The notes under the pieces are model-generated. The model was not told where the DNA came from. It made no database searches and saw only the letters and a program-made list of their open reading frames with translations. Positions 15,767-37,049 of a DNA stretch of 37,610 nucleotides are shown piece by piece (within the stretch, counting starts at the first letter, position 1; the number at the start of each line of letters is the position of its first letter). Origin of the DNA: a bacterium (GTDB lineage: Bacteria; Patescibacteriota; Gracilibacteria; UBA1369; PNNO01); contig JAGGUZ010000028.1 in the NCBI GenBank assembly GCA_021158225.1, positions 1 through 37,610 of the forward strand, given 5' to 3'. A program made the translations under genes and the position numbers.

Positions 15767-16849
15767 TTATTCCCACTGAAGTCCTCCTTGATTATTTATA
15801 ACGGAAATCCATGTTTTCCCCGGAGCAAATGTAAACTCCTTGCCGTTTCCATCGTAAAATTTATATTTATCAAGAGCGGTCATTTTTTTCCATACACCCG
15901 TAAAGACCTTTCCATTTCTAAACAAATACATATCCCCTTGTCCTTCCGTCTTCATATAAAGCCTTCCTGCCTCATCCGTAGGATAATAATTAGTCACAAG
16001 AATAACCACATTTGAAGCTGTAATTTGTTTCTCGCTTCCATGATCTATATAAGGATTCCCAGCCTGAAACCTTTTATAAACTTCATCCGTAACATCGTAG
16101 TCATATCTAACAAAATAACTGGGGAACGGATAATAAATATGAATCGTAGAAGCATTCTGATCTTCCACAGAAGGATCTTCATCTTCTTCTACAGATCCAA
16201 ACGATAAAAACGGCTCTTTTAACGGTTTATCCCATCCTCTATCTGCAATAAGTTCTCTAAGTTCCTTAACATTTGTAAAAAGATTATGAGGAGCAAAATA
16301 AACATAATCACGAGTAAAATATTTAAGTCCCCCTTCAAGAGCAAGTCCATCCAAATCAAAAACATTTCCACTATTATAAATAGCACTTAATCCCATTTGA
16401 CTTCCTCCTGCATGAGCAAGCGCACTACTAAACTGCTCAGCCCACTTTACAAAATAAGGGCGTGCCGACCTTACCGGACCAACTCGATCCGGACTCTGAT
16501 AAGGGAAGAAGGCAATAAATCGCGTAATTCCACCCTCTACTTCGGTTTCAAAAACCAAACTCGCCTGTTCCAAACCAGCCATTTGTCTTCTTGAATCAGT
16601 GTGATTTTCAACAATAACAGCTATCATCCTTTCTTCATCAACATCAATTGGCAAATCATCGATTAAAGAAAGGTGTTCTTCTGGTTCTTCTTTTGGTTTT
16701 TCGTCAATCGTTTTTTGTTGCTCTTCCGGAGGGATTTCCTTAGATGGAGCCGGCAAGGCAAAAACAGCCGTCCACACAATTATTATTACAAGTAAGAATG
16801 TAATTGCAATACCACCTATAATAAGGTATGAACGTTTCCTTTTATCCAT
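15767..16849 (-). CDS. DUF3048 (YerB-like) membrane-anchored protein
   Basis: N-terminal TM; VENHTDSRRQMAGLEQASLVFETEVEGGITRFIAFFPYQSPDRVGPVRSARPYFVKWAEQFSSALAHAGGS is typical of DUF3048. Confidence 0.85.
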   Translation of the reverse strand: MDKRKRSYLIIGGIAITFLLVIIIVWTAVFALPAPSKEIPPEEQQKTIDEKPKEEPEEHLSLIDDLPIDVDEERMIAVIVENHTDSRRQMAGLEQASLVFETEVEGGITRFIAFFPYQSPDRVGPVRSARPYFVKWAEQFSSALAHAGGSQMGLSAIYNSGNVFDLDGLALEGGLKYFTRDYVYFAPHNLFTNVKELRELIADRGWDKPLKEPFLSFGSVEEDEDPSVEDQNASTIHIYYPFPSYFVRYDYDVTDEVYKRFQAGNPYIDHGSEKQITASNVVILVTNYYPTDEAGRLYMKTEGQGDMYLFRNGKVFTGVWKKMTALDKYKFYDGNGKEFTFAPGKTWISVINNQGGLQWE

Positions 16850-16859
16850 AAGAATTGAT

Positions 16860-17528
16860 TTAGCTTTCAGCTTTTTCTCCTCCTTCTTCTTTCTTCTCTT
16901 CAGCCTTTGCTTCCTCTCCTTTTTCTCCTTCTACAGGGGCTTCAGTTTCTTCTGCAACAACTTCTTCTTCCTCGGCTCTTGGAGCCGCAACAGAAGCAAC
17001 TGTTAATTCAAGATCATCAACAGCTTCAACTCCTTCCGGAAACTTAAGATCACTGATATGAAGAACTGTATGAAAATCTTCCAATGAACTGATATCAAAT
17101 TCAATATGTTTCGGAATATTTTTTGCGATACATTTAACCATTACCATTTCTCTACTCTGCATAAAAGTTCCTCCAAACTCCCTTACCGCCTTAGATTCCC
17201 CTGTAGCAATTAATGGAACCTCTGTAGTAACTTCTTTGTTAAGATCTACAAATTTAAAATCGATATGAGTAAATTTATCAGTTACAGGATCGCGTTGCAA
17301 CTCGTGTATAAGCACATTAACCTTATCTTTCCCATCAATATCAAGTTCAAGAACTGTATTCCCTCCACCTTTCTCAAAGATTCTTCTAAATGTTTGATAA
17401 TCTACGGAGAGATTTTTATTTTCTTGTTTCAAGCCGTAAAAGATTCCGGGAATCATCCCTTCGTTTCTTATTTCTTTTGCAGAGATGTCGATAGGCCGAG
17501 ATTTAACTTCAAGTGTTATGGTATCCAT
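16860..17528 (-). CDS. rplY: 50S ribosomal protein L25 / general stress protein Ctc
   Basis: L25 fold (KEIRNEGMIPGIFYG..., VLIHELQRDPVTDKFTHIDFKFV) plus Ctc C-terminal domain and acidic tail. Confidence 0.92.
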   Translation of the reverse strand: MDTITLEVKSRPIDISAKEIRNEGMIPGIFYGLKQENKNLSVDYQTFRRIFEKGGGNTVLELDIDGKDKVNVLIHELQRDPVTDKFTHIDFKFVDLNKEVTTEVPLIATGESKAVREFGGTFMQSREMVMVKCIAKNIPKHIEFDISSLEDFHTVLHISDLKFPEGVEAVDDLELTVASVAAPRAEEEEVVAEETEAPVEGEKGEEAKAEEKKEEGGEKAES

Positions 17529-17599
17529 GAAAAATTATTATTATATTTTGCGTAAAAACAGCGTGAGAAGTTTATCTAAAAAAGCATTAAAGTGCAAGT

Positions 17600-17623
17600 A
17601 AAAGTACAAATTCTTGTACTTTT
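17600..17623. promoter_or_regulatory. Perfect 10-bp inverted repeat between divergent rplY and ybaB
   Basis: AAAAGTACAA attc TTGTACTTTT. Confidence 0.5.
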
Positions 17624-17680
17624 TCCCCGAAGTGAGTATCATATTTTTGCGTTTCGATTAACACTAACCTCAAAATAACT

Positions 17681-17977
17681 ATGAATAAGTTTAAAGATTT
17701 GTATAAATTGCAAAAACAAGCAAAAGATATCAAGAAAAAACTTCAAAACACTCATATCGAAGCTGAAGTTGAAGGTGTTACGGCTATTGTAGACGGTCAA
17801 CAAGAAATAATTTCCGTTAGTATTACAGATGAAGCCTACACGAATAAAAAGAAAACCGAATCTAATCTGGTAAAAGCTCTAAATAAGGCAATAAAAAGGT
17901 CTCAGCAACTTGGAGCCGAACAAATGAAGGATGTTATGGGCGATATGGGTCTTGGTGGAGGATTACCAGGAATGTAA
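17681..17977 (+). CDS. ybaB: YbaB/EbfC-family nucleoid-associated protein
   Basis: LYKLQKQAKDIKKKLQNTHIEAEVEGVTAIVDGQQEIISVSI...GGLPGM. Confidence 0.8.
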   Translation: MNKFKDLYKLQKQAKDIKKKLQNTHIEAEVEGVTAIVDGQQEIISVSITDEAYTNKKKTESNLVKALNKAIKRSQQLGAEQMKDVMGDMGLGGGLPGM

Positions 17978-18002
17978 AAGTATAAATAATAAATAAACTT
18001 CT

Positions 18003-35009: not shown

Positions 35010-36137
35010 TCAATTTTTAAGAACTTTTGCGTATTCAAGCTCGTATATGTGAAGAAACGCAAGGAGCAAGTTTAATATAATCGGTCCGTATATTATACCT
35101 TGTAATCCAAACGCCATAATCCCTCCAAATACCGCTAAGAATGTCAGTAATGGATGTACAGGCGCTCGTCCTTCAATAAGATAAGGCCTAATTAAATTAT
35201 CAACCGTGCTTACAACAAGCACTCCCCATAAAAACAATCCAACACCTCCTACATAATTACCGCTGAAGAAAATAATTAATGAAGCGGGTACCCACACAAT
35301 GGCAGTACCAACAAGCGGAACTAAAGAGAATAATCCAGTCGCCGTAGCCCAGAATATTGGATTGTTAAGCCCCACTACAGCATAACCTATACCAGCTAAA
35401 GTCCCTTGGATAACAGCCGTAAAAAATATTCCGAAAATCATTGCCAAGCTAACCTCTTTAAATTTTTTAAAAACAGTTCTCTCATGCTTTTCCGGAAGTG
35501 GACTTAAATCCATAAGTTTTTTTACAAAAACATCTCCATCTTTAAAGAAATAATAAAGTGCAAAGAAAAAGATCATAAACGAAATAATAAACCAGATTAT
35601 ATTTTTTATAAATCCCAAAACGTTATTTAGCTGTTCACGAAGCACATCAACCACTTTTTGAGCGGTAGAGCTTATTTGCCCAACAAAATCAAAATTAACT
35701 TCATTTATATCAAATCCATTGCTATTTACAAAAGGAGCTATCTTCTGAAATTGGTCATACACAAAAGATCCCTCTTGCCATGCCAGTAAATCTTGTACAT
35801 AACCTTCTTCCTGAACTTTGGTTGAAATATTATTGAATGCATCTATTCCTTCGGAAATAAGCAATGTCCCAAATAAACTTAACGGAATAGTTATTACAAG
35901 AAGAGTAAACAAACATGTTAAAAGAGATGCTATTCCTCCCCGTCCACCAAATAATTTTTTAAGTCTGCGAAAAATCGGATAAAAAATAGTGGCAAAAAAG
36001 ATTGCAAAAATAAGTACGGTAAAAAACGGAGTATAAAGCACGTAGACTCCATAAAAAAGTAGCAGAATAATTGCAAGCAAAAACAATCCTGCAAAATTTG
36101 GAACCGTTAAAGATGTTTTACTTTTCAAACTTTTCAA
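35010..36137 (-). CDS. AI-2E family (PerM-like) membrane protein
   Basis: FTVLIFAIFFATIFYPIFRRLKKLFGGRGGIASLLTCLFTLLVITIPLSLF...; GLFSLVPLVGTAIVWVPASLIIFFSGNYVGGVGLFLWGVLVVSTVDNLIRPYLIEGRAPVHPLLTFLAVFGGIMAFGLQGIIYGPI. Start is TTG. Confidence 0.9.
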   Translation of the reverse strand: MKSLKSKTSLTVPNFAGLFLLAIILLLFYGVYVLYTPFFTVLIFAIFFATIFYPIFRRLKKLFGGRGGIASLLTCLFTLLVITIPLSLFGTLLISEGIDAFNNISTKVQEEGYVQDLLAWQEGSFVYDQFQKIAPFVNSNGFDINEVNFDFVGQISSTAQKVVDVLREQLNNVLGFIKNIIWFIISFMIFFFALYYFFKDGDVFVKKLMDLSPLPEKHERTVFKKFKEVSLAMIFGIFFTAVIQGTLAGIGYAVVGLNNPIFWATATGLFSLVPLVGTAIVWVPASLIIFFSGNYVGGVGLFLWGVLVVSTVDNLIRPYLIEGRAPVHPLLTFLAVFGGIMAFGLQGIIYGPIILNLLLAFLHIYELEYAKVLKN

Positions 36138-36382
36138 ATTATGTAAGGTTAATGTCTCTTATACTTATATCAAAAGTTTAGATAAAAATGAAGGACTCGT
36201 TATTTATTGAATTTATTTAATATCCAGAAGATGATATCATCACCTTAAATTAGCCAACCAATAACAAACATGATTAAAGCAAATACCCACACAACACAAA
36301 TCCATATAAACAAAAATAAATATAGGCCAGACTGAAGGAATATTCCTTGGATTAATACCGAGCGCAATTGCCCTGTGAATGC

Positions 36383-36706
36383 CATTCATGAGCAAAGTCA
36401 AATTGATGATATAGAAAAGTTGTTAAAAAATAAAAGCAAAAGGAAAAAAGTTATGACTACATAGAGGTAATGGCATGTCCCGAAGGATGCATCGGAGGAG
36501 GAGGCCAACCAAAATCGAAAGATAAAGGTGTAATTGAAAAACGAAAAGAAGCTCTTTACAAAATCGACGACGATACAAAAGTAAGAATGGCTCACAGAAA
36601 TCCACTGGTAATAGATTTCTTTGAGAATTATCTCTCAAAACTTACAGAGGAAGAAAAATCAGGTATATTGCATACCTCTTTTAAAACATGTCGTCCAAAT
36701 TCATAA
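36383..36706 (+). pseudogene. Frameshifted C-terminal relic of an [FeFe]-hydrogenase large subunit
   Basis: After TAA 36431: KQKEKSYDYIEVMACPEGCIGGGGQPKSKDKGVIEKRKEALYKIDDDTKVRMAHRNPLVIDFFENYLSKLTEEEKSGILHTSF. Plausible upstream continuation in another frame: AIHEQSQIDDIEKLLKNKSKRKK. Confidence 0.85.
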
Positions 36707-37049
36707 TAACCCACTGATCTGACAGTTCCGGTTTTCGTTTAAGTTTAATTTCTACAATCGGCCTGGAAAGATCTTCAAGACTTCTGTTATTACCATTACT
36801 TGTAACTCTTACATTTTTAGATTTGCGAATAATTTGAAAATCCATTTTATTCAAATTAAATTCAACTATTCGTTGTTCTCCAATCTCAACTTCTTCTCTC
36901 CCGAGATCGATATAAAGCGGTATTATCTCATCTTGTATTATCTCCGCACCGGATTCTCTTACTCTTTGAATAATTTCTTCAAAACGATCATCCGCAGCTG
37001 AGGCAACAGTATCATCTATTTCCCTCATCGGTTTGTCATCAAAATGCAT
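36681..37049 (-). CDS. Hypothetical protein, 122 aa
   Basis: Intact ORF, balanced composition; 3' end overlaps the hydrogenase relic by 26 bp. Confidence 0.6.
   Translation of the reverse strand: MHFDDKPMREIDDTVASAADDRFEEIIQRVRESGAEIIQDEIIPLYIDLGREEVEIGEQRIVEFNLNKMDFQIIRKSKNVRVTSNGNNRSLEDLSRPIVEIKLKRKPELSDQWVIMNLDDMF

Follow-up and report, generated by a model that had tools for sequence, protein, structure and literature searches.

The forward-strand stretch at about 36316-36703 of the window (the whole contig analysed, 37,610 bp) is, judging from its sequence, very likely what is left, after several deletions, of a dead operon for an ECF-like membrane protein, probably a NuoF-like protein and a group A [FeFe]-hydrogenase, HydA. 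Three pieces (ECF-like, HydA linker and HydA C-terminus) lie in colinear order within some 390 bp; the genome holds no intact copy, and intact copies are present in relatives. Deletions, we infer, caused the losses; the operon would once have included NuoF and would have arrived by lateral transfer, separately from the hydA of a congener. The relic would thus be the trace of a hydrogen-metabolism operon that was held and then lost in a bacterium with a tiny genome, and the lost hydA was apparently of a different type from the one still present in the congener.

Table 1. Coordinates of the relic, its flanking genes and related loci in other genomes
Feature	Position	Strand	Basis or remark
Intact AI-2E-family permease, flank outside relic	35010..36137	-	PF01594, 166.6 bits; 80% identical homologue in G002
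Remnant of ECF-transporter S-component-like membrane protein (INIGQTEGIFLGLIPSAIAL)	36316..36375	+	Third frame; a decayed match may extend back to 36255
HydA remnant: end of second [4Fe-4S] ferredoxin motif and linker (NCPVNAIHEQSQIDDIEKLLKNKSK)	36366..36440	+	Frame +3; HydA profile E 5.7e-6, positions 197-221
A-rich junction of internal deletion	36425..36452	+	Inferred; profile positions 221 and 483 abut in different frames; breakpoint approximate
TAA stop in frame of C-terminal piece	36431..36433	+	Sequence and translation
HydA C-terminus remnant: third H-cluster motif and small-subunit-like tail	36434..36682	+	Pfam, NCBIfam and own profile; open frame on to 36703
Intact convergent 122-aa gene, flank outside relic	36681..37049	-	Full-length homologues (67-71% identity) in G002, G003 and G005
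HypC-HydE fusion ORF, then HydG	L034:7596-10253 and 16264-18001 (G005); G001:C25, G004:C120/C146, G006:C36/C117		Alongside group 3b-like [NiFe]-hydrogenase

The Pieces of the Relic

All 1414 stop-to-stop fragments of the window were searched with profiles of HydA (built from 20 HydA proteins of relatives), of ECF-like proteins (built from 13 hydA-linked examples) and of NuoF. The matches are colinear within one 390-bp stretch (ECF positions 59-78, then HydA 197-221 and 483-565), the NuoF profile matched none of the fragments, and translation between the pieces reveals changes of reading frame and one stop. The relic has the marks of a pseudogene: significant homology to intact genes of relatives, disrupted frames and colinear pieces.

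The C-terminal piece is a stop-to-stop frame of 90 codons (36434-36703, frame +2) in which YDYIEVMACPEGCIGGGGQP...LHTSF occupies 36452-36682. It ranks first among the 1414 fragments against the HydA profile, far beyond chance (E 5.5e-34), and matches the NCBIfam A6 hydrogenase model at positions 486-569 of 571 (88.1 bits); Pfam Fe_hyd_SSU covers frame residues 33-84 (44.9 bits against a cut-off of 24), and Fe_hyd_lg_C reaches 30.4 bits, limited to the last 23 columns of the model. The third H-cluster motif, ExMxCxxGCxxGGGQP, is present as EVMACPEGCIGGGGQP (36464-36511), and its Cys and Gly residues are retained, which is compatible with recent decay and also with retained constraint. The first and second motifs (TSCCPxW and MPCxxKK) are missing: profile positions 222-482 are absent from the window, and there is no second copy in the genome. 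The earlier note, made from the letters alone, had read this segment as the end of an [FeFe]-hydrogenase with its H-cluster cysteines, a relic of an H-domain whose remainder is absent, and Pfam, NCBIfam and our own HydA profile all bear it out. It was also right that a TAA interrupts the frame and that the called start is artificial; the sole ATG, at 36470, lies within the conserved stretch, with YDYIEV ahead of it in frame.

An H-cluster cannot be bound without motifs L1 and L2, as is established for the family. Both are absent here, and the product, if one is made, would therefore not be a hydrogenase; going by its motifs, the short frame that is left can neither hold an H-cluster nor produce hydrogen, and the hydA of this genome is very probably dead. 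It could be argued that the HydA tail has given rise to a short functional protein (78-90 aa, with a CxxxC motif and a small-subunit-like domain) that is still made and selected, as the 90 codons are stop-free and the Cys and Gly of the third motif are kept. We consider this highly unlikely: the H-cluster depends on L1 and L2, both of which are gone, the conserved YDYIEV precedes the only ATG, and the last seven codons are antisense to the end of the neighboring gene. Nor is there a stand-alone equivalent; a conserved protein of 80-90 aa, the counter-case that the earlier note had named, was found in none of the 89 genomes of the order or the 381 of the phylum, where all other matches to the piece sit in frames of 301-648 aa.

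Upstream, IDDIEKLLKNKSK is preceded by NCPVNAIHEQSQ, and together they make up the last part of the second [4Fe-4S] ferredoxin motif and the linker (E 6e-6). This match, carried by fragment 36336-36461, is the only other match to the HydA profile above background in the window, and against the HydA of G011 the linker piece scores 82, the best of 1000 shuffles reaching 56. What is missing between the two HydA pieces (positions 222-482, ~260 residues, ~780 bp) is nearly the whole H-domain; of the ferredoxin domains just 25 residues of the domain end are left, in a different frame, and a full HydA frame is not present. The earlier note had taken IDDIEKLLKNKSKRKK to continue the C-terminal frame through a frameshift over the A-run. 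Its frame (+3) was correct, but the residues belong to the linker between ferredoxin and H-domain, ~260 residues further N-terminal, and the linker piece marks a large internal deletion instead of a frameshift. Placing IDDIEKLLKNKSK (IDDIEKLLKN) as a helix directly before YDYIEV, by way of one frameshift, was tried and rejected: across 18 homologues it scored 14-22 there, versus 31-82 as the ferredoxin linker.

For the ECF-like piece, the best match of the profile in the window was 36310-36375 (E 0.0017 among the 1414 fragments). Its ungapped score against the G002 protein, 51, was matched or beaten in 9 of 1000 shuffles, and its panel sum of 260 was reached in none of 1000 (180 +/- 11 in shuffles). 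The piece is just 20 residues long, which, like the 9 in 1000 for the single score, argues against the reading of the stretch as an operon remnant. Missing between it and the linker piece are the ECF residues after ~71, any NuoF gene and HydA residues 1-195.

Flanks and the Rest of the Genome

The stop of the convergent 122-aa gene abuts the last homologous HydA codon, and the natural end of HydA is therefore missing. On the left, a block encoding 508-aa and 660-aa proteins, a 253-aa thioredoxin-like protein, a P-type ATPase and the AI-2E permease is kept in G002 and G005. Comparing synteny, as the earlier note had proposed, we found no hydA at the place of the relic in either genome; between the permease and the 122-aa gene they carry typA (plus proC in G002), and the hydA of G002 lies on another contig than the flanking block.

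The genome (990 kb, 99.4% complete) is a draft of 33 contigs, with 0.9 kb between the relic and a contig end, as would suit an assembly artefact in which an intact hydA operon had been collapsed or chimerically joined. Such an artefact is very improbable, however, since it would take a stop and at least two false joins that happen to be colinear, so complete a genome contains no further HydA fragment, and G002 and G005 share the synteny of the left flank.

In the genome as a whole we found no other HydA, no 51K/NuoF domain and no [NiFe] large subunit; the accompanying search for HydE, HydF and HydG, which the earlier note had also suggested, gave no HydG match and no HydE or HydF over the cut-off. 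The missing HydE/F/G are no proof of lost hydrogen metabolism, because relatives with an intact HydA are also without them. Phage records yielded no DNA similar to the relic. A weak match to Fe_hyd_lg_C in the relative G026 (E 8e-4, below the cut-off) looks like chance and was set aside.

Origin of the Operon

Intact HydA is found in the congener G002 (606-aa frame) and in the family member G003 (578 aa), with an ECF-like gene next after each. The order implied by the relic (ECF, NuoF, HydA) is intact in G011, G191 and G296. Among the 20 HydA proteins, the identity of the relic is highest to that of G080, of another family (49%), and among the lowest to that of G002 (38%). In a tree of 115 columns the relic stands apart from G002 and G003 (split 96.8 aLRT/89 bootstrap) and is weakly joined with G080, G296, G011, G088 and G191; the bootstrap at its own node is low (45).

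Gene order and the short tree connect the relic with operons of the ECF-NuoF-HydA type from other families and not with the hydA of the congener, and the tree split, the identities and the gene order together favor an operon that was separately acquired and then decayed. Vertical loss is a live though less likely variant, itself compatible with a dead operon remnant: the relic would be the orthologue of the G002 hydA, broken in this species. The intact hydA of G002 and G003, in the same family, speaks for it, and the low identity to G002, the differing gene order and place and the supported split speak against it. The ancestor with hydrogen metabolism, since lost, that the earlier note had envisaged stands to the extent that the operon was once held; it was probably gained laterally, since it is probably not the congener's gene.

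On the favored reading of separate acquisition and decay, the original operon would have run from an ECF-like membrane protein through, probably, a NuoF-like NADH-binding subunit to a group A HydA. A first deletion would have brought the ECF gene, cut in its middle, up against the HydA linker, a second would have removed the H-domain residues with motifs L1 and L2 among them, and the natural 3' end of hydA would have been lost as well.

HydA Maturation in Relatives

The relic leads to a testable question, namely how HydA is matured in genomes seemingly without HydE, HydF and HydG. The intact-HydA genomes G002, G003, G011, G043 and G052 show neither HydG nor, over the cut-off, HydE or HydF; in G296 (853,053 bp, a single contig), tblastn with HydG, HydE and part of a HydF as queries finds nothing (loci of G296 and the other intact-HydA genomes in this comparison: L118, L135-L177). 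G048, which has a short HydA, encodes the C-terminal portion of a HydF-like protein where one of its contigs begins (L045:2-409), and its congeners G043 and G052 have no HydF over the cut-off. The HydA of G011 (L038:1783-3375) lacks the third H-cluster motif (CPGGC) owing to an in-frame gap of ~46 residues; it may be one more copy in decay, or the assembly may be at fault.

Across the phylum, HydA recurrently has an ECF S-component-like membrane protein as its neighbor, and NuoF is often there too; at least three gene orders occur (14 HydA loci: L110, L111, L116-L119, L036-L041, L053 and L054). A phylum-wide "orphan" [FeFe] module of HydA, NuoF-like and ECF-like proteins might conceivably work without HydE/F/G of its own, repeatedly gained and lost, with the relic as its wreck; the ECF-like protein could, for example, let in an H-cluster precursor supplied by a partner cell. 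We regard this as improbable.

In four genomes of the same family (G001, G004, G005 and G006), HydG occurs together with a HypC-HydE fusion, or with what remains of one at contig ends, alongside a [NiFe]-hydrogenase; they have no HydA, HydF or HypF over the cut-off, and the fusion was profiled in G005 only. Judging from these loci, HydG/HydE chemistry may serve a [NiFe] enzyme in the four genomes. The passage of PMC7304191 on CPR group 3b-like "hyd2" enzymes describes small subunits that are short (164 aa on average) and a hypC-like family nearby, and makes no mention of HydE or HydG; the [NiFe] loci here resemble the "hyd2" loci described there, with small subunits of 167-186 aa. Our literature search, of incomplete journal coverage and thus weak evidence of novelty, found nothing on HydA without HydE/F/G or on HypC-HydE/HydG with a [NiFe] enzyme.

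Comparison With Known Systems

The relic is very probably a decayed operon, one that was probably acquired laterally. Its closest counterpart is the group A (A6-like, NADH-linked) HydA of NF040763/TIGR02512: the C-terminal 84 residues align to the end of the model, third motif included, and the linker matches, whereas the N-terminal iron-sulphur domains, L1, L2 and most of the H-domain are gone and the frames are broken. The likeness to the iron hydrogenase small subunit (PF02256, 45 bits over frame residues 33-84) is that of a fragment, in which the domain is a single-chain HydA tail joined to the third H-cluster motif; a stand-alone small subunit is a separate conserved short gene, and the relic has no stand-alone homologue. 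The 20 ECF-like residues match the same membrane segment of the hydA-linked ECF S-component-like protein of the phylum (PF12822, barely over the cut-off), of which the relic keeps this segment only. Finally, for hydrogenases of bacteria of the Candidate Phyla Radiation (CPR), PMC7304191 describes a patchy presence across close genomes and attributes it to lateral transfer; the scattered presence is alike here, but that study covers [NiFe] enzymes, and the relic is that of an [FeFe]-hydrogenase.
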